Assembly (NCBI RefSeq): GCF_013394695.1
Contig: NZ_CP058258.1
Location: forward strand, 950,001-1,014,000
Origin: Streptococcus sp. oral taxon 061
GTDB lineage: Bacteria > Bacillota > Bacilli > Lactobacillales > Streptococcaceae
Length of the DNA stretch: 64,000 nt
Reading direction: 5' to 3'
This document shows, one piece after another, positions 65 through 14,241 of the stretch (the stretch's first letter is position 1; each line of letters opens with the position of its first letter). A program made the position numbers and the translations under genes. The notes beneath the pieces are model-generated. The model was not told where the DNA came from, did no database searches, and worked only from the letters and a program-made list of their open reading frames with translations.

Positions 65-850
65 CTAGCTTGTTTTTTCAATTACGCTCTCCAAATCACG
101 CTTTTCCACACTCATGTATTCAACTTCTTTTGTTCCGTTATTGTAATGATAGCATCTAAAAATCAATTGATTCCCTGTTTGAAAGAGCGTGTCTATCCCA
201 GAGGATTCTCCTGGGTATTTATCTAGTACCATTTCATCAATGAGCTCTAATGTCTTTAAACGAAACACGAACCATCTTTCTTCCGTTGTAGAGAATACAC
301 CATAAGAATTGTTAATCTTCCAAACGTTTGATAACCCGTCATTTTCAAATACTGAAAATCGTTGGCTAGACTTTATTTGAAAATCATGATTCGTTATTTT
401 ATAAATTTCAGTTGTGTAAAAATTTACCAACAACGAACTTTCCTCGTCAATCGTAAAAACATACGCTAAATCTCGTGGAAATTTATGTCTCATACTCAGC
501 CCACGATTCAATAATTCAAGGCAAAAATCCTGTGAGCCGTCCTGTCCCGCTGTTAATGAAACGATGATTTTACTATCAGAGAAGCTCTTAAAAGTCACCT
601 CAGAATCAAGAAAGCTATCTTCCAAATCTAAATAGGAACTTTGAAGATTCTTTTCGTCTCTCACTTCAATCCGGATCTCATGGCTACTTTTTCGATAAGC
701 AAACCAAGTTAAGTTATTTTTCTGAGATTGATGGCAGCCAATGATTGTACCTTCTTTTGTACTTATATTTTCAAACCTCTTATCAGATGAGTGGTGATAG
801 TCTATTAACCCATTTTCCTTCTCTTTTTTTAAACCGCTAAGTTGAATCAC
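65..850 (-). CDS. Hypothetical protein, unknown function, beta-rich
   Basis: I do not recognise this 261-residue protein. It has no signal peptide and no membrane segment. The composition is polar with many alternating hydrophobic/charged stretches, suggesting a beta-sheet fold such as a partial propeller; that is an impression only. I chose the GTG at 848-850 because a strong GGAGG Shine-Dalgarno lies 8 bases upstream; the ATG five codons earlier would place this GGAGG inside the gene. It is the last gene before the window edge in an accessory block that also holds an ADP-ribosylglycohydrolase and a SUKH immunity-type gene, so an immunity or stress role is possible but unsupported. Confidence 0.6.
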   Translation of the reverse strand: MIQLSGLKKEKENGLIDYHHSSDKRFENISTKEGTIIGCHQSQKNNLTWFAYRKSSHEIRIEVRDEKNLQSSYLDLEDSFLDSEVTFKSFSDSKIIVSLTAGQDGSQDFCLELLNRGLSMRHKFPRDLAYVFTIDEESSLLVNFYTTEIYKITNHDFQIKSSQRFSVFENDGLSNVWKINNSYGVFSTTEERWFVFRLKTLELIDEMVLDKYPGESSGIDTLFQTGNQLIFRCYHYNNGTKEVEYMSVEKRDLESVIEKTS

Positions 851-916
851 TCGTTTCACCTCCATCTGGTCTTAGAAATTTAACTATTATCGAGCGCTAG
901 CCTTATTTCTATAAAT

Positions 917-1765
917 TCAGCCAACTTCCCTTTCCCATCGTCTGAGGACATCCTTTAAAGGCTCATCTAGATAGGTATAGGCTTTTTTCTTAATCCAATC
1001 AGGAATACCATAAGCTGCTTCGGCTATACTTCCTGTGATAGCAGCAAGAGTATCACTGTCCCCACCAAGAGAAATCGCATTTCGAATCGCATCTTCAAAA
1101 TCTGTACTTTCTAGAAAGGCAACGATGGCCTGAGGAACGGTATCCTGACACGTTTCATTGAAACGATAAGTAGGACGAATTTCATCTAGTGTTTGAGAAA
1201 GATTATATCCATACTCTTGTTCTATGTGTTCCTTGATGAGTCTCTTACACTCTGTAGGATTATCGTTGATCGGTTTTCCATAGTCGCCACTGTAACCTCC
1301 AAAGTAATAACGACACATAAAGATAGCATCAGACGTCGCCATAGCTCCCTTGACCCCCTCTGGATGGTTATGAGTCACCTCTGCAGAAAGTCGTGCAAGA
1401 GCTCTTCTGGACGGCCAGGCTCCCGTTCGTGCACAAAAACTACAATCCATGGCCCAGGCACATGGAGAAACACGCATTGCTGAGCCATTGCCGAAGCTAT
1501 TATAAGGTTCTCGATCGTCGCCATCAATCCAATTGCCAAATCTTGCACCGTAACCTGCATCGGGATACATCCTACCATATTTTTTCATGGCATCAATAAA
1601 GTCATCCTTCTGACCGCCATTCATAATGGCTTCAGCAACGGCACAGGTCATAACCGTATCATCTGTGAAAAAGCAGTCCTCACGAAATAAAGGAAAGTTC
1701 TTCGTTTTTATATTGTCCCATTCATAAACAGAACCTACAATATCTCCAACTATTGCTCCTAGCAT
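917..1765 (-). CDS. ADP-ribosylglycohydrolase family protein (DraG/ARH-like)
   Basis: The 282-residue cytosolic protein shows the metal-binding motifs of the ARH/DraG family: GAIVGDIVGS at the N terminus, FTDDTVMT near residue 33, a GNGSAMR motif near residue 93, THNHPEG near residue 131 and GGDSDT near residue 234. Family members remove ADP-ribose from proteins, nucleic acids or small molecules using a pair of Mg ions held by these Asp/Thr residues. The substrate cannot be told from sequence. A clear Shine-Dalgarno (AAGGAGG) precedes the ATG, and the alpha/beta hydrolase gene ends only 14 bases upstream, so the two are probably co-transcribed. In this accessory block it could reverse a toxic ADP-ribosylation; that is inference. 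Confidence 0.85.
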   Translation of the reverse strand: MLGAIVGDIVGSVYEWDNIKTKNFPLFREDCFFTDDTVMTCAVAEAIMNGGQKDDFIDAMKKYGRMYPDAGYGARFGNWIDGDDREPYNSFGNGSAMRVSPCAWAMDCSFCARTGAWPSRRALARLSAEVTHNHPEGVKGAMATSDAIFMCRYYFGGYSGDYGKPINDNPTECKRLIKEHIEQEYGYNLSQTLDEIRPTYRFNETCQDTVPQAIVAFLESTDFEDAIRNAISLGGDSDTLAAITGSIAEAAYGIPDWIKKKAYTYLDEPLKDVLRRWEREVG

Positions 1766-1779
1766 AAGATTCCTCCTTG

Positions 1780-2583
1780 TTATATATCAGATTCAATACA
1801 CATTTCCAATGATTCGCGCTTTAAAAATGGCTCAACCAAATCAATCCACTCTTGAGGCAGATAAGCTGACAAATAGCCATGATTATAACCCTTTGCTTCA
1901 TATAAAATCGTATTTGGATGCAGTTGCTGAAATAATTTAGACGATGCTTTCACACAGTTCAATTCTTTTTCACCATAAATATACAGAACCTGCGCCTTGC
2001 TATCAGAAATCGTATCCTTCAGTTTGTAACGCCCCATATAGGTATTGTAAATAGTCACTAATGTTTTGATAGGCGTCCTTGGCAGATCCTCTAAATAATA
2101 AGCTTTTAGTTCATCTGGATAAGCGAGTTTAGGATAGATTTTGTCCATCATGCCTAATTGGAGTTTACATGAGAATTTACTAAACATCAGTTTACCAAAT
2201 AAACGTACTAGAAAGATGCTGATTTTAGCCAACTTTGGTTGAGGAATACAGAGGCTACCGTCTATGATGACTTTCTCTGCTATATCGCCGTCTAAAGACA
2301 AAAGCTCCATAGCAATTTGGCCACCAAGTGAAACACCACCAATCGCAAACACCTTCCCCCCATAATTCTCTTTGATAAAGTCCAAGATTTCCAAGGCAGA
2401 ATCTTCAGTAGAAACATAATCGAGTTGATATTCTTCGCCGTGACCATTCAAAGTAGGTAAAATAACACGGTATTTCTCCGACAAGATTCGAGCTTGACGA
2501 AGATAGTTCCACCAAGAGCTACCGCCACCGTGTATGAGAAGGATAGGAGGCAAATCCTTATCCCCAAATTCATGGAATTTCAT
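1780..2583 (-). CDS. Alpha/beta hydrolase
   Basis: The 267-residue protein has the alpha/beta hydrolase layout: an oxyanion-hole LLIHGGG near residue 16, a nucleophile elbow GGVSLGG near residue 80 and a C-terminal His in YNHGYLS near residue 235. It probably acts on an ester or related small molecule in the cytosol; the substrate is unknown. I start it at 2583 because AAGGAG lies just upstream of that ATG, whereas the ATG 16 codons upstream has no good ribosome site. It precedes the ADP-ribosylglycohydrolase gene with a short gap. Confidence 0.8.
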   Translation of the reverse strand: MKFHEFGDKDLPPILLIHGGGSSWWNYLRQARILSEKYRVILPTLNGHGEEYQLDYVSTEDSALEILDFIKENYGGKVFAIGGVSLGGQIAMELLSLDGDIAEKVIIDGSLCIPQPKLAKISIFLVRLFGKLMFSKFSCKLQLGMMDKIYPKLAYPDELKAYYLEDLPRTPIKTLVTIYNTYMGRYKLKDTISDSKAQVLYIYGEKELNCVKASSKLFQQLHPNTILYEAKGYNHGYLSAYLPQEWIDLVEPFLKRESLEMCIESDI

Positions 2584-2753
2584 ATTTGAACTCCTTACTG
2601 TAGGATTTTCACTAGGTTCATCATTGTTCAATCAGTTTGAAGAAGCAGTAATATCGGTTCAACATCCTCAGTCATAGAGAACATATCCACATCCCTTTTA
2701 ACAATAGCAAAGGTTATCGTAAAAAGGTATTACCTAGATAAACTGAGATTTTA

Positions 2754-3074
2754 TTATTTCTTCTTCTTTGGTTTTGGTGCAGGTAACTCATCATACATTG
2801 AATTAAATAAGCCAGTTAAATATTCTTTGTTGTCAACATCATCTACCAATAGCATTTCCTTTGCACCTTCATACGGCAATTCGTATTCTACATTCGGCAT
2901 ATACGATATTGCAGATTTGACAGGCTTCACTAAAAATCTATCATCATAAATTCCACCCATGATTTTCCCTCGATAATAAATTATATATTCACCCATCATT
3001 GCTCTATATGATATTTCTTCCAACTCGGACAATTGTTCTAAAATGAAATCTAAATATTCTTTACTTGAAGCCAT
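2754..3074 (-). CDS. TfoX N-terminal domain protein
   Basis: The 106-residue protein resembles the TfoX N-terminal domain family: an initial helix (SKEYLDFILEQL), then the R-A-M-M-G-E-Y motif near residue 24 and a short beta core with GGIYDDRFLVKP. It ends in a lysine-rich tail (PKPKKKK). In proteobacteria TfoX promotes competence, but stand-alone N-terminal domains in Firmicutes have no assigned role, so no competence function should be assumed. GAGG precedes the ATG. It stands alone, separated from the next upstream gene by a gene-poor stretch of about 370 bases. Confidence 0.75.
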   Translation of the reverse strand: MASSKEYLDFILEQLSELEEISYRAMMGEYIIYYRGKIMGGIYDDRFLVKPVKSAISYMPNVEYELPYEGAKEMLLVDDVDNKEYLTGLFNSMYDELPAPKPKKKK

Positions 3075-3443
3075 AATCTACACCTCGTCAAATTCTAAGT
3101 TGTATAGAACAACTAATACTATAGCATTTTAATTCAATTTTAACTTATCAAACAATCTCATTGTGAACCTCTTTATTAAATCCAAATCTATATAATGACC
3201 ATTGTACATATTTTACGCTAAACTAGAATCTATCAAACTAAGTCTGTCCTGCCACCATACTGTTTTTCACTCTATCATTTGCTTCTTCAGTCCAAATATT
3301 GGTTTTATCACACTTATGATAAATGTCACTAATTCCTACATTCATATTTCTCTTTTCGATCAATTACCTTCTTAATACATTCCATATCTTAATCATATTG
3401 TAGATGCAACATTTAATACATACTCCCTATAGAATATATTGTA
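3075..3443. other. AT-rich gene-poor stretch with gene debris
   Basis: This stretch between the TfoX-like and SUKH genes holds no intact gene. Its only coding-like part is the minus-strand remnant listed separately. The rest is AT-rich with many stops in all frames, and I see no clear repeat or RNA gene. Confidence 0.5.
3238..3345 (-). pseudogene. Short coding remnant downstream of the SUKH gene
   Basis: The minus strand reads 35 codons beginning MNVGISDIYHKC and ending NSMVAGQT before a TAG. Codon use looks like protein rather than noise. In the neighbouring frame just upstream there is another coding-like run (CIKKVIDRKEKYE), as if a frameshift separates two parts of one gene. I cannot name the family. 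It lies directly downstream of the SUKH gene, so it may be the tail of a decayed neighbour. Low confidence. Confidence 0.3.
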
Positions 3444-3887
3444 TCAAGAAAAGCTTTCTACCTGTTCTACTAAATCTAAAACAAGTTCCGAAAAGTTCTC
3501 CGCAATTTCCTCAAGGTCAACATAGTCATTGTTATATCCACGAACCTTACCGCTTTTCAGGTCTATAAATACGATGCTTCCATCACCTAAACCTCCGATA
3601 GGAAACACTGGGCCGTTTTCACATTCACTCATATACTCCTCGTATGCCTTTTCAAAGTATGTATAATTTTCCTCCAACTCCTTCAAGTTAAAAATCCATG
3701 GTTCTACCAAATAGCAACCACCTAGGTTAAGTAGCAGCCAGCGGTACTCTGCTGGTATGGAGGCATAATTTGCTTCAAACTTTTTTATATCCTCCTCTGA
3801 CTCAGGTCGAATACCGTCTGTAAAGGCACTCGTTTCATAAGCTATCCCAATTCTATCAAGGTGTTTTTCCAAATCAACATTACACAT
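3444..3887 (-). CDS. SUKH (SMI1/KNR4) family immunity-type protein
   Basis: The 147-residue acidic protein has the SUKH pattern: an N-terminal helix with PESEEDIKKFEANY, the I-P-x-E-Y-R-W-L-L-L core near residue 43, and the F-P-I-G-G-L-G-D-G-S-I-V-F-I-D strand near residue 95. SUKH proteins commonly bind and neutralise nuclease or other polymorphic toxins. GGAGGGC precedes the ATG. No toxin gene is seen beside it, only a short remnant downstream, so it would be an orphan immunity gene. The toxin target is unknown. Confidence 0.8.
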   Translation of the reverse strand: MCNVDLEKHLDRIGIAYETSAFTDGIRPESEEDIKKFEANYASIPAEYRWLLLNLGGCYLVEPWIFNLKELEENYTYFEKAYEEYMSECENGPVFPIGGLGDGSIVFIDLKSGKVRGYNNDYVDLEEIAENFSELVLDLVEQVESFS

Positions 3888-4236
3888 TTTGCCCTCCTAG
3901 TAACTTCAATTTACTTGCTAGAAATCCTTTCATTTCAATACATTAATTAAGCAATAGGTACAAGCCTTGACATCAACACAATTGTCTCACAATGTGGTAA
4001 TATTCTGCTTTTATACTAATAAACAAAAGGCAAATAAAAACATTTTAAAATGATACTGTGGAACGGAAAGTTGATCACTTCTTCCAAAAGAAACATCATC
4101 CATTCTATAATTTAAAATCCTTTTCTTTACTAATTCTATTACTAGCCAATATCGTATAAATTAAATAAGCAATAAAAATGATAATAAAAATAACATGACA
4201 ACCAGTCTTACAACTTACTACTTTTCATATGATAAT
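3888..4236. other. Intergenic stretch with duplicated CPBP gene end
   Basis: The first 200 bases hold nothing I can support. From about 4105 to 4190 there is a second copy of the 3' end of the CPBP protease gene (listed separately). No promoter or RNA gene is evident. Confidence 0.5.
4105..4190 (-). pseudogene. Duplicated 3' fragment of the CPBP protease gene
   Basis: The minus strand reads IIIFIAYLIYTILASN followed by RISKEKDFKL and a TAG, almost the same as the C terminus of the intact CPBP gene at 4817-5569, which ends RISKEKNLYPK. Base identity is nearly complete over about 70 bases (4120-4189 against about 4836-4905). The rest of the gene is missing here. The two copies flank the nucleotidyltransferase gene as direct repeats, implying that the gene arrived by, or triggered, a duplication. 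Confidence 0.75.
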
Positions 4237-4728
4237 TTACAAATGTCTTTCCAGCCACTCGATCTTTTTAAAATCCTTATTGTTATTTTGTTCATTTCGA
4301 TAAGAATCTTGGGAAGAAGCCTTGTAAATACTTAAAAACTGTTCCAAGCTTGGAAGACGAAAAGTGATGTCATCGAGATGAATCAGCTCTATATCCAATT
4401 CCGAAACTCTTGCAAAATCAGGTAAAGAATCAATACTTCCGAATTCAACGCTCAGACCATCCTTTTGGAATTCATGCTCATGAATATCTATTAAGACGTA
4501 GCCTAAGTCTTTCATCACTTTCATTATCTTGTCCCAGTCATAAATTCTGAGATGATCAGGTGCTTCCCAACCTCTAGGGTCACCAGGTACATGAATGTCA
4601 ATGTCAGACGGCCCCCAATTTTCTTTCGTTCTAAACTCAAATCCCAAAGAGCCCATCAGTGTCGGTGTAATTCCGACTCGATTTAAATGGAAACAAATGG
4701 TTTTAAATTCTTCAAATAAGAGACTCAT
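4237..4728 (-). CDS. Small nucleotidyltransferase-fold protein
   Basis: The 163-residue protein carries the nucleotidyltransferase signature: MGSLGFEFRT near residue 26 followed by the metal-binding SDIDIHV near residue 41, then a third acidic segment LSVEFGSIDS. It resembles the minimal NTases used for antibiotic or tRNA modification and as antitoxin partners, but I cannot tell the substrate. It is unrelated to the CD-NTase at 6727-7614 beyond the shared fold. The gene is flanked on both sides by copies of the CPBP 3' end, and a coding remnant abuts its start. No strong Shine-Dalgarno is visible at the ATG. Confidence 0.7.
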   Translation of the reverse strand: MSLLFEEFKTICFHLNRVGITPTLMGSLGFEFRTKENWGPSDIDIHVPGDPRGWEAPDHLRIYDWDKIMKVMKDLGYVLIDIHEHEFQKDGLSVEFGSIDSLPDFARVSELDIELIHLDDITFRLPSLEQFLSIYKASSQDSYRNEQNNNKDFKKIEWLERHL

Positions 4729-4730
4729 AT

Positions 4731-4815
4731 TTACTCTAAACCTTTCATATAGATTTTCGTTATTTCTACTATATAACCTTGAACAAAATCATCTTCATTT
4801 TCTAGAGTATAGCCA
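4731..4815 (-). pseudogene. C-terminal coding remnant between CPBP and NTase genes
   Basis: Directly upstream of the nucleotidyltransferase, the minus strand reads VSKITGYTLENEDDFVQGY and on to a TAA that lies 3 bases before the NTase start codon. It overlaps the CPBP stop in another frame and has no start of its own, so it looks like the tail of a lost gene joined to the CPBP end. Family unknown. Low confidence. Confidence 0.35.
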
Positions 4816-4816
4816 G

Positions 4817-5569
4817 TTATTTTGGATACAAATTCTTTTCCTTACTAATTCTATTACTCGCCAATATTGTATAAATTAAATAAGCAATAAAAATGATAAT
4901 AAAAGAAAGATTAATCTTCAACACAAAATAGAGATTTAACAAATTTGCGAACGCATGAAATAATAGACAGTACCCTACAGATTTCGTTTGACGATAAAGA
5001 AGCCCTAAAACGAAACTTAAAAATAATGTATATATAAAAAATAAAATAAAAGGAAATCCTTTATGGCTTTCTCCAACTATAAGCCATAAAGGCAGATGCC
5101 AAATCCCCCAAATTGATCCTACAATCAAATTAGATTGCCAATAAGTATATTTTTTATCAAGTAACGGTTGTAATATACCTCTCCATCCTAATTCTTCATG
5201 TCCACCACCAAAAAAAATTAATTGTATAAAGAATAGCGGCATTAGATAAATTGATACTCCGTTTAATTCTAAGGAAGATACTGAGAATAGTATCAAAATT
5301 GCTAACAAATGAATAATGAAATAAATACTACTATTTTTTCTTTTATTAAATACAAAATGTTTAAATTTTATATTATTACTTTTCAAATAAAAACCACTTG
5401 CAATAGCTGGACCAAGTGCGCCTACTATATGTAGTGTTCTCCCTATAATCGTTTCTAATCCCAAAATATGAGATTGCGTAATTATGGCGAGAAGCCCCCA
5501 TGTTATATAAGTAATTCCAAATGTACAATAAAGATAATTTTTTAAATTCTTTTTATCAATTTCTGTCAT
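4817..5569 (-). CDS. CPBP family intramembrane metalloprotease
   Basis: This 250-residue protein has about six to eight hydrophobic segments and the CPBP (Abi) motif 1 EELGWRG near residue 124 with a following motif 2 WHLPLW near residue 157, holding the catalytic Glu/His residues. CPBP proteins are membrane proteases or protease-like; in lactic acid bacteria some give self-immunity to bacteriocins and some act in anti-phage defence, but most are unassigned. The last 24 codons are duplicated at 4105-4190. The gene lies just outside the rlmCD-end island. A TATAAT at 5632-5637 could be its promoter. Confidence 0.85.
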   Translation of the reverse strand: MTEIDKKNLKNYLYCTFGITYITWGLLAIITQSHILGLETIIGRTLHIVGALGPAIASGFYLKSNNIKFKHFVFNKRKNSSIYFIIHLLAILILFSVSSLELNGVSIYLMPLFFIQLIFFGGGHEELGWRGILQPLLDKKYTYWQSNLIVGSIWGIWHLPLWLIVGESHKGFPFILFFIYTLFLSFVLGLLYRQTKSVGYCLLFHAFANLLNLYFVLKINLSFIIIFIAYLIYTILASNRISKEKNLYPK

Positions 5570-5664
5570 TTCATTTCCATATCTTGATTATTTTAAATGT
5601 AATATTTGTTACTGCTTATTAGTTGGTCTTGATTATAACCACCTATATTTTATCACAAAAATAC

Positions 5665-5755
5665 AAAAAAAGCCTTACATTCAAGGCTTTACATTATTGA
5701 TTCATATCAAGATTTCTAGGCTTTTACGAGCAACACTACACACTAGGAGCTTCGC
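5665..5755 (-). repeat. Direct repeat of the rlmCD 3' end and terminator (attR-like)
   Basis: The minus strand here matches the end of rlmCD and its terminator at about 12822-12901. Both copies share AGTGTGT, six variable bases, then GCTCGTAAAA-C-C-TAG, followed by a hairpin built on AAAGCCTTG...AAGGCTTT and a T-run. The shared order over about 80 bases fits a pair of direct repeats made by integration at the gene's 3' end. This copy has no upstream rlmCD sequence. Confidence 0.7.
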
Positions 5756-5823
5756 TGTTACCGTATCGTTTCGTCGTAAACTCCTCACTCTACGACAGCT
5801 ATACCATGGGCGGAAATCTGCTT

Positions 5824-5885
5824 CTACTTTGCTGATGTCTCAGCTTGTACAAGCAGTGATACTGCCTCAACATGATGCGTTTGTG
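5824..5885 (-). pseudogene. RlmCD-like C-terminal fragment (scar 1)
   Basis: The minus strand reads PQTHHVEAVSLLVQAETSAK then TAG. The intact RlmCD ends [15 protein letters not shown], so this is the same conserved C-terminal motif with a different tail. Upstream sequence is not methyltransferase-like. It fits an alternative gene end carried by an element that once integrated at rlmCD. Confidence 0.6.
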
Positions 5886-5888
5886 GGA

Positions 5889-5916
5889 CTCAAAAGGTTT
5901 GGGTGAACCTTTTGAG
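5889..5916. repeat. Perfect 11-bp inverted repeat
   Basis: CTCAAAAGGTT (5889-5899), a six-base spacer, and AACCTTTTGAG (5906-5916) form a perfect hairpin between the two RlmCD-like fragments. There is no T-run directly after it, so it is a poor terminator; a recombinase or protein site, or the end of a small element, is possible. Confidence 0.6.
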
Positions 5917-5918
5917 GA

Positions 5919-5962
5919 TTAAGCACGTTTCACTAACAAACTCACGCACTCAACATGTCTTG
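5919..5962 (-). pseudogene. RlmCD-like C-terminal fragment (scar 2)
   Basis: The minus strand reads HVECVSLLVKRA then TAA, again the RlmCD C-terminal motif ([11 protein letters not shown] in the intact gene) with a different end. Homology fades just upstream of the HVEC codons. It is a second rlmCD-type gene end stacked next to scar 1. Confidence 0.55.
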
Positions 5963-6136
5963 ACGGTTACTACCTATACTGTGAAACGAAATCAAAGCTG
6001 CTGAATATCCGTATTAAACTATTAAACGTAACTAATGCGAGTATTTACGGCTTCGTTAATATACAGTATTGTTACATCTATGCCAAGTTTCCGATAGTTA
6101 GTTCTTCTTTCTTTATTTAAATCTTTACAAATCCAA

Positions 6137-6721
6137 CTAGCGAGAAGGGTTGTTTATCTCAAAACTCATTGAACCTTTGGTTCCTCGATTAGTATAATAA
6201 TTTCCTTCTAGTTGATTTGGATTATCAATATCAAGAATTACCGTCCCATAATGTATAGGACTTTGCAATTCAGCCCTTGGGCTATTTAAATATGTATAAA
6301 TTAATTTTTGTGTTCCATTATCATTGATAATTGATGCTGTAATGCTATGGCTCGAACTTTCACCCGTTTTAAACTTAACTTTAATAGTCGTAAATGACTG
6401 TTCAATAGTAAGTTCACAATTTCTTTCATTCTGATCATAGTCCGTCTTGAAACTACCTACATAATTCGCAAATAAAATTGGAACATTATGAATCTTAGAT
6501 AGTAATGGCCACCGCCATGCTGTTTTTTCAAAAATAGCCATAATAATTGCTGTAACTGATATAGCTTCACCAATATACCCAATGGCTGAATATACCAATG
6601 CCAAAATATCAGATTTAAGATTCACTGCAATCTCTTGGCCACTTATTAACAATCTTAATAACAAGCAAATTGCAAAAACCCATATTGTAATATTCAAAAA
6701 TTTTTTCTGCTGTTCATTCAT
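6137..6721 (-). CDS. cap15: CBASS effector, 2-TM beta-strand-rich (Cap15 / S-2TMbeta type)
   Basis: The 194-residue protein has two N-terminal membrane helices (about residues 8-27 and 36-65) and a beta-rich C-terminal domain of about 110 residues, beginning WPLLSKIHNVP and ending with GNYYTNRGTKGSMSFEI. This is the arrangement of the SMODS-associating 2TM beta-strand effector (Cap15), in which the beta-barrel binds the cyclic nucleotide and the membrane helices oligomerise and disrupt the inner membrane during phage infection. It starts 5 bases after the CD-NTase stop codon, so the two form one operon. The Cap15 call rests on architecture, the Y-x-T-x-R-x-x-K-G strand and the partner gene, not on a database match. 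Confidence 0.8.
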   Translation of the reverse strand: MNEQQKKFLNITIWVFAICLLLRLLISGQEIAVNLKSDILALVYSAIGYIGEAISVTAIIMAIFEKTAWRWPLLSKIHNVPILFANYVGSFKTDYDQNERNCELTIEQSFTTIKVKFKTGESSSHSITASIINDNGTQKLIYTYLNSPRAELQSPIHYGTVILDIDNPNQLEGNYYTNRGTKGSMSFEINNPSR

Positions 6722-6726
6722 AAGTT

Positions 6727-7614
6727 TTATTTATAATCCAAAAATTCAATCATTCTAACTAAAAAAGTTTTTGTATCCTGTAAATTCCATTTCTGCTCTG
6801 AACGAAAAAGGTAATACATTCCACTTACTTCAACCCAATTTAAATTCACTTGAGACACTATGTAATATAACGCTTGCTGTAACAACCCTGTGTAGCTATT
6901 ACTATTGAAAAACATCTGTTCAGGTATATTCCAGACCAAACATTCTATCAAATATGAAGAAATGCGTTCGTTTGTCAATCCTAGCTCCTGCATCTCGTTC
7001 TTAATATGCTTCATAATCCTAACTAAATATTTATATTTATAGTGAGTAGATTTATTCTTAGAGATACCATTTTGTATATGAACTTTAGGATAATTAATTA
7101 CTTCATAATTTCCGTTTGAGGTAAAAAATTTGATGCCTTCAACAAATTTTTCAGATGACCTGCTACCAATATATCTATAATTTCGATATTGAAAACATGG
7201 GACTACATCTGCATTTACGTGATATGAGTTAGAATTAATATTGATACACTTATTGCCAATAGAAACTGATTCTGCACCAAATTTTGAAATTAACGCTTTA
7301 ATCACTTCGTTTTTAAATACATTAGCATTGGTGCTGCTACTAGAGTAATTATAGTCTAGGTCCGATAACCCATCTACATACTCACAATAAAATAAAGATT
7401 TCACCATGATACAGATATCAATGTCGCTATTTTTCTTTACATTCGTATTATTTGCATAAGAACCTTGGGCAAAAATTTCATATTCATACTTTGAAGAGAG
7501 CCCACTCCTTTCTATTGCATCTTTAATCATTCCAATAGTATTTTCAACCCGTGTTTCTTCAGTGGCAGATAACGGCTTAATCCATGATTGTAATGCTTCT
7601 TCAGAATATCTCAT
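6727..7614 (-). CDS. CBASS CD-NTase (cyclic oligonucleotide synthase)
   Basis: The 295-residue protein carries the cGAS/DncV-like nucleotidyltransferase core: GSYANNTNVKKNSDIDI at residues 51-67, with G51-S52 and the metal-binding pair D64 and D66, and a third carboxylate D136 in the strand VNADVVP. In CBASS these enzymes make cyclic di- or trinucleotides when phage infection is sensed. I use the ATG at 7612-7614, which starts MRYSEEALQSW and has GGAG 10 bases upstream; the open frame extends 35 codons further but that part looks like untranslated leader. Together with the Cap15-like gene it forms a minimal two-gene (type I) CBASS operon; no E1/E2, HORMA or TRIP13 genes are present. Clade and product nucleotide cannot be assigned. 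Confidence 0.85.
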   Translation of the reverse strand: MRYSEEALQSWIKPLSATEETRVENTIGMIKDAIERSGLSSKYEYEIFAQGSYANNTNVKKNSDIDICIMVKSLFYCEYVDGLSDLDYNYSSSSTNANVFKNEVIKALISKFGAESVSIGNKCININSNSYHVNADVVPCFQYRNYRYIGSRSSEKFVEGIKFFTSNGNYEVINYPKVHIQNGISKNKSTHYKYKYLVRIMKHIKNEMQELGLTNERISSYLIECLVWNIPEQMFFNSNSYTGLLQQALYYIVSQVNLNWVEVSGMYYLFRSEQKWNLQDTKTFLVRMIEFLDYK

Positions 7615-7748
7615 TATAAAACAACTCCATTTTAGTTTTTTGGTTAATTCATAAAAAGTAACCGATATTAAAAAAATCCTACATATAATTATACCACTAA
7701 ACAAGAAAAAAGGCTGCAAACATAGTGAACTATACTATGCCTACAGCC

Positions 7749-8180
7749 TTATAAATCAACTTCTGTTCCTTCCAAAAATCTAACGGTTATCTGTCCATCC
7801 TCCGAAATCAAAATACTATCTAGTACCTGACACATCTCAAAGGAATCATATTCCCAACACTCCTTATTTATCAATTCAGCCAGTAACACACTGTAATGCT
7901 TTTCTAATAACTGGTTTTCTTCCAAGATCTTATTCCACTTTCCATGCAACAAATCCATATTCTCACTCAGTAGTTTAACTGCCATCATTACAGCTTTCTC
8001 TAGTGTTCCCTCATCGATATGGTTATTCTGACAACCAATCTGTCCCTTTACCTTATAACGGTTGTTACACTGCCAAACTTTACGTTTGCCACGACTGGTC
8101 GTCCAGTTCTTACGTCCAAAAGCTGAACCGCATTCTGCACAGAACACCTTGGTAGTAAAAGGGTTGTCCTCATTTTGCAT
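7749..8180 (-). pseudogene. Large serine recombinase, C-terminal fragment
   Basis: The 143 codons encode a recombinase zinc-ribbon: VFCAECGSAFGRKNW, then WQCNNRY and GCQNNHIDE with the four Cys/His zinc ligands, followed by a helical segment and a C-terminal VRFLEGTEVDL strand typical of large serine recombinases. The catalytic Ser domain and DNA-binding N terminus (expected 350 or more residues) are missing; the frame is cut at about 8181, where the Mega umuC stump begins on the other strand. It sits upstream of the CBASS operon and is probably the former integrase of the element that brought CBASS. Confidence 0.8.
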
Positions 8181-8357
8181 GATGTAGAAGAAATTGAAAA
8201 AGAAAATAGACTTCAGACAGCTATTGATGTTGTCAGAGAACAGTTTGGCTTTTTAGCCATACAAAAAGGAACCGTCCTAACTGAAGGTTCCTAAAATATT
8301 GAACGCAGTAAACTTATTGGCGGTCATTCCGCTGGTGGATTGGAGGGATTAAAATGA
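8181..8357 (+). pseudogene. umuC: UmuC-like Y-family polymerase, C-terminal stump with a stop
   Basis: The plus strand reads DVEEIEKENRLQTAIDVV, then QFGFLAIQKGTVLTEGS, an in-frame TAA at 8292-8294, and NIERSKLIGGHSAGGLEGLK to a TGA overlapping the next gene. This is the C terminus of the UmuC-like polymerases carried by streptococcal conjugative elements, with about 400 upstream residues missing and a nonsense codon within the stump. The 5' break coincides with the recombinase fragment on the other strand, so Mega is shortened at this end. Confidence 0.75.
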
Positions 8358-8722
8358 TTGACCGTTCATCCTTACCATTTCAGTCAGCAAGAGAGTACCA
8401 GGATACAAAGATGCAAAAATGGATGGGCTTTTTCCTATCTGAGCATACATCAGCACTCTCTGATGATACAAACAAAGTAACGTACATGTCAGATTTGTCA
8501 ATGGAGAAGAAATTATTACTCCTCAGTCAAGTATACGCTGGGCAGCTACACACACGCATTCAAGTGATTGAAAAAAACAAGCGTGTTTCCCACACTGGAA
8601 CAATACCAAGTCTGAATAAGGATTTCATTTTGATAAAAACTACAACAGGTCACATCAATTTGAAATTGAAAGACATTATTAGTATTGAACTTGTTGAGGA
8701 GGTGCTTTATGAATCAGCTTAA
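8354..8722 (+). CDS. YolD-like protein of Mega
   Basis: The 122-residue protein starts IDRSSLPFQSAREYQDTKMQKW and has the YolD-like pattern with MEKKLLLLSQVYAG mid-protein and a small beta domain in the second half. YolD-like proteins are usually encoded beside UmuC-type polymerases and are thought to modulate the SOS response. Its ATG overlaps the TGA of the umuC stump, showing that they were one operon. With the polymerase gone its role is unclear. Confidence 0.75.
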   Translation: MIDRSSLPFQSAREYQDTKMQKWMGFFLSEHTSALSDDTNKVTYMSDLSMEKKLLLLSQVYAGQLHTRIQVIEKNKRVSHTGTIPSLNKDFILIKTTTGHINLKLKDIISIELVEEVLYESA

Positions 8723-9008
8723 GTTTCAGCGTAACCAACTGCAAATGGACTACTACAGCGAGAGCTACCAAGATTTTGAATGTGACTTCTACCGCTATTC
8801 CAACATGAATATTCCATTGACCTTCCTAACTGATGATATCCTAAAAACAATGGCGACTTCACGTAAGAATTACTTTGTCCTCAATAAGGAAAAGTCCAGA
8901 GATAACCGCGATCACTTCTTCATATTTGAAGTAAGTACCGTAGATGAGAATCCGCTAATCTATCATTATACATATAAGAAAACTACAATATATTTAGCAG
9001 AAAAATAG
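8709..9008 (+). CDS. DUF5960-type small protein of Mega
   Basis: The 99-residue protein, NQLKFQRNQLQMDYYSESYQ onward, is a standard passenger of Mega and related elements and belongs, as far as I recall, to DUF5960; its function is unknown. I use the ATG at 8709 because GAGGAGG lies 7 bases upstream; the upstream ATG at 8685 is inside the preceding gene without a ribosome site. The start overlaps the end of the YolD-like gene by 14 bases, indicating coupled translation. Confidence 0.7.
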   Translation: MNQLKFQRNQLQMDYYSESYQDFECDFYRYSNMNIPLTFLTDDILKTMATSRKNYFVLNKEKSRDNRDHFFIFEVSTVDENPLIYHYTYKKTTIYLAEK

Positions 9009-9038
9009 GAGCAGTTCAATTGACTGTTCCTATTTTTA
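9005..9038 (+). terminator. Terminator after the DUF5960 gene
   Basis: ATAGGAGCAGT and ACTGTTCCTAT form a hairpin with a small loop, followed by TTTTT, directly at the end of the gene. Confidence 0.7.
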
Positions 9039-9125
9039 ATATTCATAAAATCTAAAGTCTTTATACTCTTTAACAATGGAGTCGCCAACCAGAACAGACT
9101 ATACTGACCAGCGACTACCTTAAAT

Positions 9126-10589
9126 TTAATGTTTCAGATTTATTTTCTTATCTCTAATTTCATAAACTACATCTGCTACATTTTCGAGTAATCGTTTATC
9201 GTGGGTGATAAACACGATAGTTCCGGTGTACTCCTTCATTAGTATTTCCAAAGCCTCTAAACTTGGTATGTCAAGGAAGTTACTGGGTTCATCCATTATT
9301 AGGATGTTATATCTACCCATGAGCATTTTAGCAAGCAACAATTTTATAATTTCTCCACCGCTTAAAACAGATAAACTTTTTCCAATATCGTTCTGTTTGA
9401 ACCCCATAGATGCTAGCACTGAACGAATTTCTGATATATTGTAGTCACAATCCTTCTGCATAAACTCCATAACATTCTGATTACTGTTGTACTTGTAACC
9501 ATTCTGTGCAAAGTAACCTATTTTTGCCTTAGGCGAAATAGAAATTCCTTCTTCATGGTTTAAGATCATTTGGATTAAAGTTGTTTTTCCGATTCCATTA
9601 CCACCAGTTAACGCCACTTTTGCTCCTAACGGAATTTGAAAAGATGCATTTTCAAACAGAGCCTTATCCCCAAATACTTTATTAATTTCTGCACCGACTA
9701 TAGGGTATGGATTATGGAGCTCCAATGCTTTACTTTGCCTGAAACGAATTCTGCGAATGCCTTCCGGAGCTTCTACTTTTCCTAAGGCCGCAATCCTGTG
9801 CTCTAGGGTTTTAGCAGCATTATACATCTTTTTTTCCTTACTTCCTATTGATTTTTGATGAGCTAAACGCCCTCCGTCTTCAGTACTTTTTTTCTTTGAA
9901 GAACCTTTTGCCTTCTGTTCTATTTTACGAGCCTGTTTTCGCTTTTCCTCCGCAGCCCTTTCCAATCGGGCACGTTCCGCAATAAATTGTTCGTATTCTG
10001 CAGCTTGGCTCTTACGTTCTTCCTCTTTCTGACGAAGATAATCAGAATAGTTTCCCCAATACTCAGTGATTTTGCCATCTTTCAGTTCCCATATTTTATC
10101 TACTATTTCATCAAGAAAATAGCGGTCATGGCTAATAACTAACAGTGCACCTGTAAAATATTTTAGCTGTCCTATTAGAAAATCAATTCCTTCACGGTCT
10201 AAATGGCTCGTAGGTTCATCCGCTAAAATACCATGAACCTGTGCCGATAAGGCCTGTGCTATTTTAAGCCTTGTTTCTTCACCACCGCTCATAGTCTGTA
10301 TATTTAATTGCTCAACACCTAGCTTGCCTACAAGTGCAAAATCTTTTTCCTCCTGCAGAGTTACTTCGTCCAACTGGGGAATATAGGCAAGTTCACCCAG
10401 ACGATTCATTTTACATCCTGGGGGAGTTAATTCTCCTAAAAGTACCCTGAGTAAAGTGCTTTTTCCAGCACCATTTGCTCCTACTAAACCAATACGGTCA
10501 TAATCATATACTTCTAATTCATTTATATCTAAAACATCGCGTCCTTTGAATTCCACACGAATGTCTTTTGCTTTTAATATTAATTCCAT
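9126..10589 (-). CDS. msr(D): Msr(D) (Mel), ABC-F ribosome-protection protein
   Basis: The 487-residue protein has two ABC ATPase domains in one chain and no membrane segments: Walker [10 protein letters not shown] near residue 38 with signature SGGEE and LADEP, then GGNGIGKTT near residue 330 with LSGGE and IMDEP; the linker is Lys/Glu-rich. ABC-F proteins of this class displace macrolides (and ketolides or streptogramin B) from the ribosome. It lies 119 bases downstream of mef(E), the hallmark of the mef/mel operon, and is transcribed with it under the macrolide-responsive leader. Length matches Msr(D). A minus-strand hairpin at 9080-9116 (AGTCGC...GCGACT) could end the operon. Confidence 0.95.
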
Positions 10590-10708
10590 AACATTTCCTC
10601 CTGTCTATAATCGCATGCTTTCATTTGCTTGTATGCAGGGAAAACCCTGCGATTTTAGCAGGAAGAGTTACATGAAAATAAGATACATAAATATTCCTCC
10701 AATATTGT

Positions 10709-11926
10709 TTATTTTAAATCTAATTTTCTAACCTCAGTTATCATTTGGCAAACTATAGCAATGCCAATAATTAAAATACCTGATAGTAAAAACCAATGAT
10801 TTACACCGATTTTATCAGCAAAGAATCCAGAAAGAATTAACCCAATTGGCATAGCAAGTGACATGATACTTCCGATCAAAGAAAATACACGTCCTAAATA
10901 TTCAGGCTTAATTTTCTCCTGAAAAAGAGCTGTTTGCACACCGCTATAAAATGGCACCGAAAGCCCCATTATTGCACAGCAAACTACGAATATTACAAAT
11001 CCATTTGGAGGAAGTATTCCCGAAACGGCTAAACTGGTCCCCATTATAAAAAATGAACTTGTTATTAGTAATACATGCTTTTCGAAGCCCCCTAATCTTC
11101 CTAATAATAAGCCTCCTGCTAGCATCCCAAATGCAAAGGAAATTTCCGTAATAGAAATATGCACAGGCGTTCCATTAAAGTGTTCCATGCTTATTAAAGG
11201 AAATAGTGCATTGATTGGCATATAAACAAAAGTATATAGTGTTCCTAAGAGTAATAAGGCAAACAATCCTTTGTTTTGTCTCAGAACCACAACTCCTTCT
11301 TTCATCTCCCTTATGAAATTTGGTTCTAAACTTTGCACTTGATTACCCAGCTTAGGTATACGTACAATTGCTACCGTAATAGATGCAATCACAGCACCCA
11401 ATACGTCGATGGCAATAATAGCATTTAAATCCCAAACGGAGTATAAGAGTGCTGCAACTGCCGGACTAACAATATAGCTTATAGACTGCAAAGACTGACT
11501 ATAGCCTGCGCATTTCGTTAGCTGTTCTTCTGGTACTAAAAGTGGTGTAACCGCATTGAGTGCTGGGGTATGAAAAGCTGTTCCAATGCTACGGATAAAC
11601 AATACTATCATAATCATCCAGACAGGTAGCTCCATACAGAATGCAACAATAGCAAGCACTGCACCAGCTGCTGCGATAATTAAATCGGCACCAATCATTA
11701 TCTTCTTCCTATCATGACGATCCACTAGCACACCAATGGCAGGTCCCAAAATCGCATAGGGTAAAAAACCTACTAATGAAGCCATAGACAAGACCATCGC
11801 AGATCCTGTTTTTTCTGTAAGGTAAAAAATAATCGCCATTTGCAGGATGGCACTAGTGATTAATGATACTGCTTGCCCTGCCCATATTGCATAAAATTTT
11901 CGTTTCCAATTGTTGTATTTTTCCAT
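10709..11926 (-). CDS. mef(E): Mef(E)/Mef(A) macrolide efflux transporter
   Basis: The 405-residue protein is a 12-helix major facilitator. The first loop carries GVLVDRHDRKK near residue 67, typical of motif A, and the start MEKYNNWKRKFYAIWAGQAV is characteristic of Mef. It exports 14- and 15-membered macrolides using the proton gradient and works together with Msr(D). I favour the mef(E) subclass because the spacing to msr(D) and the flanking genes are those of Mega; mef(A) and mef(E) differ by only about ten percent of bases, so this should be typed by alignment. Expression is controlled by the leader at 11990-12290. Confidence 0.93.
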   Translation of the reverse strand: MEKYNNWKRKFYAIWAGQAVSLITSAILQMAIIFYLTEKTGSAMVLSMASLVGFLPYAILGPAIGVLVDRHDRKKIMIGADLIIAAAGAVLAIVAFCMELPVWMIMIVLFIRSIGTAFHTPALNAVTPLLVPEEQLTKCAGYSQSLQSISYIVSPAVAALLYSVWDLNAIIAIDVLGAVIASITVAIVRIPKLGNQVQSLEPNFIREMKEGVVVLRQNKGLFALLLLGTLYTFVYMPINALFPLISMEHFNGTPVHISITEISFAFGMLAGGLLLGRLGGFEKHVLLITSSFFIMGTSLAVSGILPPNGFVIFVVCCAIMGLSVPFYSGVQTALFQEKIKPEYLGRVFSLIGSIMSLAMPIGLILSGFFADKIGVNHWFLLSGILIIGIAIVCQMITEVRKLDLK

Positions 11927-11988
11927 TTATATTATCTCCTGCATATTATTTTGCTTGAATTTCTATTTTGAATAGCATTCTAGGCAAT

Positions 11989-12036
11989 AAAAAATGCAGG
12001 CCAAACCCCACAATGTGGCTTTTGGTCTGCATACAT
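11989..12036 (-). terminator. Attenuator terminator upstream of mef(E)
   Basis: On the minus strand ATGCAGACCAAA pairs with TTTGGCCTGCAT around an inner CCACATTGTGG hairpin and is followed by TTTTTTATT. It lies between the leader peptide and mef(E), so it must be bypassed for resistance expression. Confidence 0.85.
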
Positions 12037-12193
12037 ACAATTTGGAAACATTCATATTAAAGACATAGTTAAATAAAGGTATAGTTAAATAACCAATATC
12101 CTCACCGTAACTAATGAATGCTCAATATCGTATAAATAAGCACAACAAAAAAGCCTATCATCGGGTATAGATTCTGCTTTTTTTATTGCCAGC

Positions 12194-12220
12194 TTATCTT
12201 AAACGCATTGAGGCTGTCAT
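12194..12220 (-). CDS. mefL: MefL leader peptide (MTASMRLR)
   Basis: An eight-codon open frame encodes MTASMRLR and a TAA, preceded by a strong GTAGGAGG at 12231-12238. This matches the known leader peptide of the Mega mef(E)/mel operon, where a macrolide-bound ribosome stalls and induces the operon through the downstream attenuator. Confidence 0.92.
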   Translation of the reverse strand: MTASMRLR

Positions 12221-12260
12221 AGTTTCGGTTCCTCCTACATCTTTGTTTATATCAATTTAT

Positions 12261-12289
12261 AGTATAACACAACAAGATGATATGTTCAA
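12261..12289 (-). promoter_or_regulatory. mef(E) operon promoter
   Basis: TTGAAC (12284-12289) and TATACT (12261-12266) on the minus strand are 17 bases apart, about 40 bases upstream of the leader peptide start. It is a near-consensus sigma-A promoter. Confidence 0.85.
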
Positions 12290-12311
12290 TATAAAAGTTA
12301 TGGAATGAGAC

Positions 12312-12482
12312 TCATACTTCCAATTCGATGCCAGATTTAAAGGATATGACGAAGTTTTCTTCATAGACTGTAACGCTCTGGATTATCTTCCTTAGTAGCA
12401 AGCGATTAGCTTTCACAAAATCTTCTGTTTGTAGTTTTAAAAATTCATCAGGATTTTCTAACTCAACCTCAAAATATTTCAT
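12312..12482 (-). pseudogene. Serine recombinase C-terminal remnant
   Basis: The 56 codons read MKYFEVELENPDEFLKLQ, then LLLRKIIQSVTVYEEN and ISFKSGIELEV. The V-x-V-Y-E-x-x-x-x-x-x-F-K-S-G-I-E pattern is the very C terminus of large serine recombinases. GAGGG precedes this ATG, so a small peptide could still be made. It lies on the other side of Mega from the zinc-ribbon fragment at 7749-8180 and looks like the tail of a different recombinase, since both fragments have their own C termini. Confidence 0.6.
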
Positions 12483-12821
12483 TTTACATTCCCTCATTTC
12501 ATTTATTGATAAATTGAGTTTGCAAAAAAGAGTGGACAATTTTTGTCTACTCTTAACCTTTAAAATAGTTTTTTTTAATCGATTTGAAGTTGCCTAAATT
12601 ATTACTTATTCGGTAAAATGAAGTATTGCTTTCAACAGATTTCCTTCAACTACACTTCACTTGATTCAAACAAGGTGGGTACATTTCTATTCCCACAAAC
12701 TCCTTGTCAATGGAAACAAACACGTACCCACAGGGTAAATGGAAATAGAAACTGATAATTTCTAGCTATCACTTCTATTCATTCCAAAAATTTTCTCACT
12801 CTGATACTTCCCCACGCCAAT

Positions 12822-14241
<1,420 letters not shown>

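Follow-up and report, generated by a model that had tools for sequence, protein, structure and literature searches.

The two genes at positions 6137–7614 of the window (i.e., the whole 64,000-nucleotide stretch of Streptococcus DNA analyzed here) very probably constitute a complete two-gene type I CBASS, in which a cyclase of clade E (CdnE) would make cyclic di-UMP and an effector of the Cap15 type would disrupt the membrane, and which appears to have moved together with the macrolide resistance element Mega. The CBASS system itself is ordinary, and its linkage to Mega is the only mildly new point.

The cyclase gene (CD-NTase, cyclic oligonucleotide synthase) is located on the minus strand between 7614 and 6727 and encodes 295 amino acids, at the coordinates first given. 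Its start is likely the ATG at 7614, since the relatives start at the same residue; an alternative, longer TTG frame begins at 7719. The motif residues listed in a preliminary description of this DNA (G51-S52, D64-x-D66, and D136) are all correct: the active site GS...DxD...D lines up with that of ClCdnE at G51-S52, D64, D66, and D136, and with that of EfCdnE at G51-S52, D64, and D66. The protein is recognized by the PADLOC cyclase model PDLC00801 (E 1.1e-108) and by the Pfam SMODS model PF18144 (27.4 bits, cut-off 26.5), while the NCBIfam cyclase models all stay under their cut-offs (191.4 vs. 350, 61.1 vs. 200, and 39.2 vs. 200 bits). In the PDB, the five matches at E ≤ 0.001 are EfCdnE from Enterococcus faecalis (7x4c, the top match, E 8.7e-85), ClCdnE, LpCdnE (7x4f), EmCdnE (6e0m), and RmCdnE (6e0k), after which come 6p8u and 6p82 at E 0.015. 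Among cyclases of solved structure, EfCdnE comes closest (140 identical residues out of 292, 47.9%). A grouping with non-cyclising nucleotidyltransferases, against which the gene had to be checked, was therefore not what was found, as the matches are to cyclising CdnE enzymes, and the clade, which had been thought impossible to name by eye, can be given from the sequence as clade E. Two other nucleotidyltransferase identities were considered and rejected, each on a weak match: a CCA-adding enzyme (cca_archaeal, 28.8 bits vs. a cut-off of 281.3) and an antitoxin-type enzyme (MntA, 14.7 bits vs. a cut-off of 60).

The signal of the window CdnE is predicted to be cyclic di-UMP (cUU), because all three published lids fit makers of cyclic dipyrimidines. 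The synthesis of these molecules has been ascribed to two features, an Asn of the acceptor pocket as lid 1 and, at the C-terminus, the motif (R/Q)xW as lid 3 (PMC10442399). In the alignment to the PDB chains, N174 of the window enzyme corresponds to N169 of ClCdnE (lid 1), H179 to H174 of ClCdnE (lid 2), and Q274-K275-W276 to R279-x-W281 of EfCdnE (lid 3), with Gln where EfCdnE has Arg. The lid 3 motif is retained in relatives from another Streptococcus genome (G086, locus L068; QKW), a Clostridia MAG (L004; RKW), and a viral contig (L075; RKW). The preliminary description had also placed the signal nucleotide beyond naming by eye; the lid residues do allow cyclic di-UMP to be named as the likely one. 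In a 12-row tree confined to CdnE rows, strong support is found only for the window enzyme with that of G086 and for the trio G449, G486, and L004b, and the deep forks are weak; therefore, the cUU assignment leans on residues and identity and not on a supported clade. A second CD-NTase-like gene is found at 8909–9895 of the Clostridia locus L004, just upstream of its CdnE–Cap15 pair, and groups with the G449 and G486 cyclases.

The closest known system is that of E. faecalis (EfCdnE–Cap15; PDB 7X4C), which is likewise a type I operon with Cap15 and whose cyclase shares with the window enzyme the active-site residues, lid 1, lid 2, and a lid 3 of the (R/Q)xW kind (PMC10442399). The two differ in the first residue of lid 3, as well as in host and genomic setting, and the window system is known from its sequence. 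Staphylococcus schleiferi harbors another CdnE plus Cap15 CBASS of a Gram-positive bacterium, Ssc-CBASS (CdnE03–Cap15) which, unlike what is predicted for the window, makes cGAMP (PMC10686824). The CdnE relatives found on plasmids of S. aureus and S. epidermidis have 33–34% identity to the window CdnE. It is unlikely, although the precedent gives the idea some weight, that the window system is a CBASS with such a different signal, either mixed or a purine cyclic dinucleotide: a Cap15-paired CdnE is able to make cGAMP elsewhere (PMC10686824), the CdnE tree has no resolution at depth, and lid 3 begins with Gln instead of the Arg of EfCdnE. However, the published motif covers Gln as well as Arg, three of three lid positions fit cyclic-dipyrimidine makers, and EfCdnE, the nearest solved enzyme, gives cUU and cUC (PMC10442399). 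The isomer of cUU that activates Cap15 was left unsettled in the consulted part of the same study (PMC10442399).

The effector gene follows on the minus strand, from 6721 to 6137, exactly where it had been placed beforehand, and encodes a Cap15-type protein of 194 amino acids with two predicted membrane helices and a beta-barrel cyclic-dinucleotide receptor domain. Residues 81–187 match Pfam Cap15_CD_rec (PF18153; E 1.8e-23, 83.6 bits, cut-off 31.2), the whole protein matches the PADLOC 2TM effector model (E 3.3e-94), and the solved Cap15 7n34 is reached both with the single sequence (E 5.8e-8) and with a profile (E 2.2e-12); no relevant model was found in NCBIfam. Given the PADLOC E-values of the cyclase and of the effector, the family matches are not due to chance. 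Hydropathy reveals two hydrophobic stretches at about residues 7–33 and 42–65, N-terminal to the Cap15 domain, and the predicted structure consists of long helices at residues 3–27 and 38–70, one short helix and then eight strands, which is in line with the two membrane helices and beta-rich domain first described. The confidence of this model is moderate (mean pLDDT 72.2, pTM 0.61; built on a 4-row alignment in which two rows are identical); the five models obtained range from 47.6 to 72.2 in pLDDT, and the best one is weak at residues 27–42 and 148–155. Foldseek gives three matches at E ≤ 0.001, each of them a Cap15 chain (7n34 and 7n35), the best being 7n34 (E 1.9e-6, 2.0 Å over 113 columns, TM 0.82 on the target), so that the Cap15 fold is recovered by sequence and by predicted structure. 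The likeness to the receptor domain of Yersinia aleksiciae Cap15 (7n34/7n35) extends over effector residues 93–186 by sequence and positions 70–190 by profile, with about 30% identity between the two proteins.

A type I CBASS consists of an adjacent cyclase and effector and lacks the accessory genes that accompany them in other CBASS types. This is the layout of the window pair, whose genes lie on the same strand with the described gap of five bases (6726–6722) and whose immediate neighbors are the tail of a recombinase and copies of the tail of rlmD. The reading of the pair as a minimal type I CBASS, made up of a clade-E CdnE and a Cap15-type effector, thus stands, and CdnE–Cap15 operons have indeed been termed type I (PMC10442399). 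Two genes on the far side of the effector, an NTase-like one (4237–4728) and a CPBP-protease one (4817–5569), were tried as further members and rejected: they have no PADLOC match at E ≤ 1 and lie outside the block shared with Streptococcus sp. HPH0090 (see below). They belong to a stretch (917–5569) that also contains ADP-ribosylglycohydrolase, alpha/beta hydrolase, TfoX-like, and SUKH genes, and whose gene content varies among the compared streptococcal genomes.

The two families are found side by side in other genomes as well. An intact CdnE–Cap15 pair occurs in G086, with 59 and 61% amino-acid identity to the window proteins, respectively, and relatives of both are also adjacent in L004, in L075, and in two less closely related genomes of the order (L085 and L086). 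Among plasmid records, 36 have effector matches, 52 have cyclase matches, and 22 have both; by a hand count in which one pair spans the origin of its record and several records are near-duplicates, the two matches lie on the same strand and less than 500 bases apart in 20 of the 36 Cap15-matching records. Two further records have them separated by 756 and 1,520 bases, and the other 14 of the 36 have no match to the window cyclase.

By analogy with the known systems, phage infection would switch CdnE on, possibly by way of a structured phage RNA, as happens with the staphylococcal CdnE03–Cap15; the active enzyme would then make cyclic di-UMP, this molecule would bind the Cap15 barrel, the ligand-bound Cap15 would assemble in the membrane and disrupt it, and the infected cell would die ahead of phage maturation. 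In Ssc-CBASS, a phage-derived RNA activates the cyclase, transcription is unchanged on infection, and membrane disruption by Cap15 follows (PMC10686824). The proposal, made in the preliminary description, that activity must be controlled through the CD-NTase itself agrees with this precedent. In a scan of the region upstream of CdnE (7615–7812), no promoter passed.

Starting from rlmD, the order of the region is as follows: a truncated Mega element, a junction at 8174, a recombinase tail, a hairpin, the CBASS, and two partial copies of the rlmD 3′ end. The gene rlmD, also named rumA (12874–14238, minus strand; TIGR00479, 420.3 bits, cut-off 183.55), encodes a 23S rRNA (uracil-1939) methyltransferase, and its 3′ end is the insertion site; the same 3′ end is known as the class IV site of Mega, and the gene as a recurrent insertion site (PMC4321634). 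The cores of its partial copies are located at 5866–5874, just beyond the CBASS, with the reading PQTHHVEAVSLLV, and at 5949–5957, a short way into the shared block from its left edge, with the reading HVECVSLLVKRA* (both on the minus strand). The presence of Mega beside the CBASS, as first described, was borne out, since both of its resistance genes are found at full length on the minus strand: msrD/mel, encoding ABC-F ribosomal protection (9126–10589; NCBIfam NF000168, 782.6 bits, cut-off 680), and the macrolide efflux gene mef (10709–11926; NF000245, 887.9 bits, cut-off 675). The element itself (8174–12903, minus strand) was delimited by comparison with a 5,511-base unit, defined as the part common to copies from different contexts, and lacks 305 bases of it on the CBASS side, about 345 internally, and 130 on the rlmD side. 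Consequently, though mef and msrD are full length, these three missing stretches set the window copy apart from the canonical 5.5-kb Mega unit; the 5,511 bases of the common unit agree with the figure published for Mega-1, which is printed there as “5,511 kb” (PMC4321634). Just upstream of mef (11987–12217, minus strand), there is a match of 275 bits to Rfam RF02862 (Enterococcus sRNA 1300), which may correspond to the leader or attenuator region of mef and not to a separate sRNA.

The CBASS is outside Mega proper and adjoins its truncated end. Directly upstream of the operon lies what is left of the C-terminal part of a large serine recombinase (7749–8180, minus strand; 143 amino acids with a zinc ribbon, Pfam PF13408, E 2e-14), and between this remnant and the operon, a pattern match identifies a terminator-like hairpin of 17 pairs with a T tail (7710–7750, minus strand). 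A recombinase tail is likewise found upstream of CdnE–Cap15 in G086, with one extra gene of 258 amino acids in between; this arrangement suggests that the CBASS may have arrived on an element carrying a recombinase. The extra gene (8079–8855 of L068) has no Pfam match. The region of L068 upstream of the pair (610–8855) contains pieces of broken recombinases, one Abi_2-like fragment, and several genes that match no Pfam family, and is possibly a degraded, defense-carrying element.

An indication of how the pair travels comes from Streptococcus sp. HPH0090 (L002, taken as G205). The block 5926–12903, comprising the CBASS, the recombinase tail, and the truncated Mega, is 99.56% identical in this strain, with flanks at 92.7% (right) and 84% (left). 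The 500-base bins lying wholly within the block range from 98.0 to 100% and those of the flanks from 82.7 to 96.0%, while the two border bins, which cover 75 and 403 bases, give 92.0 and 96.8%, respectively. Within the 1,478 bases of the operon, HPH0090 shows a single difference and S. infantis D6t1 (L003, taken as G072) is identical. This second genome is nearly identical to the window from its contig end at 5353 to about 22000 (with the exception of bins of 96.4–99.8% near 8000–9000, 15000, and 20000) and mostly 85–99% identical thereafter; therefore, the window and G072 share a larger tract. Because a near-identical block is present in a lineage whose flanks have clearly diverged further, the CBASS and Mega appear to have moved as one unit, this being the most direct inference from the alignments. 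The preliminary suggestion that phage defense and macrolide resistance may travel together has, in this sense, one clear case.

Two further observations concern the same region. The window differs from G072 at 8001–9000 (96–99%), and at 8501–9000 also from G205 (98%), the rest of the block being about 100% identical; this pattern suggests a small local recombination in the genome of the window. In addition, the G072 stretch (L078) matches two places in the window's own genome (G000:C1:585721-604856 and 611618-631712), the scores of the two being equal over 12 kb and similar farther on, which would reflect either a large duplication or an assembly artefact.

The system is present in four of 284 Streptococcus genomes (one genome per species), and in three of these four carriers it lies beside Mega at the rlmD/rumA 3′ end. 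The gene mef is found in 63 of the 284, or 62 once G161, with a match of 25 bases, is dropped; among these 62, the match in G103 is partial, and several copies, at 85–92%, may be other mef types. A general link between Mega and the CBASS was rejected, as 59 of the 62 mef-bearing genomes are without this CdnE and only three have the CBASS. When 20 mef neighborhoods from the other 59 genomes were sampled, Mega was directly beside rlmD in nine, and no blastn match of at least 60 bases fell within window positions 5959–8173 in any of them. It is very unlikely that CBASS and Mega were gained separately at this hotspot, in which case their proximity would say nothing about joint movement: rlmD/rumA is a recurrent insertion site (PMC4321634), and none of the nine Mega loci beside it has this CBASS, but the L002 and L003 blocks both have the Mega–recombinase junction at 8174 and both lack the internal stretch of about 345 bases, and the G205 block is about 99.6% identical whereas its flanks are not. 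The shared junction and the shared absence indicate that the combination most likely arose once.

Class IV Mega insertions share with the window both the element and the target gene 3′ end, and comprise simple insertions, PPI-1 replacements with ISSmi2, or such cases to which a 42-kb transposon-like element is added (PMC4321634). The cases described in the consulted part of that work include none with a CBASS, whereas in the window a truncated Mega is joined to the tail of a recombinase and a CBASS. A literature search returned no description of a CBASS–Mega linkage in the titles or abstract beginnings among the matches listed.

The family is sparse in streptococci. At E ≤ 0.001, the cyclase is matched in seven of the 284 genomes, namely the window's own (G000), G072, G205, and G086, plus three weak matches with 25–26% identity; at E ≤ 1e-20, it is matched in five of 395 sampled genomes of the order. 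The Cap15 family search recovers five of the 284, the same four over the cut-off and a fragment in G280 below it. This C-terminal fragment (L069, 8078–8290) lies beside a gene of 392 amino acids in a genome with no cyclase match, and is probably a CBASS relic. A pattern scan of genome contigs, sensitive to close relatives only, yielded three loci, and the operon DNA has no match in plasmids. Carriage of the pair by phages was considered and rejected: a search of 50,697 phage records gave no match to the cyclase, and the pattern scan of viral contigs yielded no confirmed relative of Cap15. An alignment search with the cyclase retrieved two viral contigs, one of which, L075, has a Cap15 relative beside its CdnE, and the CdnE–Cap15 family may be carried on phage-like contigs of this kind. 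CBASS was already known in streptococci from S. suis, where it was detected via PADLOC (PMC12479173); the available passages of that report give no clade, effector, or Mega linkage for comparison within the genus.

It is highly improbable that the pair no longer works and is decaying as a passenger among broken mobile elements: its neighbors are indeed broken (the recombinase tail, the truncated Mega, and the partial rlmD copies) and G280 keeps a Cap15 fragment without a cyclase match, but the two frames keep their full length and the catalytic and lid residues are intact, the operon is unchanged in L003 and has the single difference in L002, and the differences from the roughly 60%-identical relative of G086 bear the mark of constraint, third codon positions being the most changed (30.6, 23.8, and 49.3% at positions 1, 2, and 3 for CdnE; 30.2, 20.6, and 48.1% for Cap15).

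The reading of 6137–7614 as a complete type I CBASS would add a streptococcal member to the group of cyclic-dipyrimidine CBASS, with a testable prediction of its signal. The region also provides one concrete example of a block that physically links macrolide resistance to phage defense at a known recombination hotspot. Whether this block is a composite unit of resistance plus immunity, i.e., a truncated Mega and a cUU–Cap15 CBASS at rlmD that spread as one block among mitis-group streptococci, is a proposition with roughly even chances; if it is true, macrolide use would co-select phage immunity, and phage pressure would co-select macrolide resistance, in these lineages.
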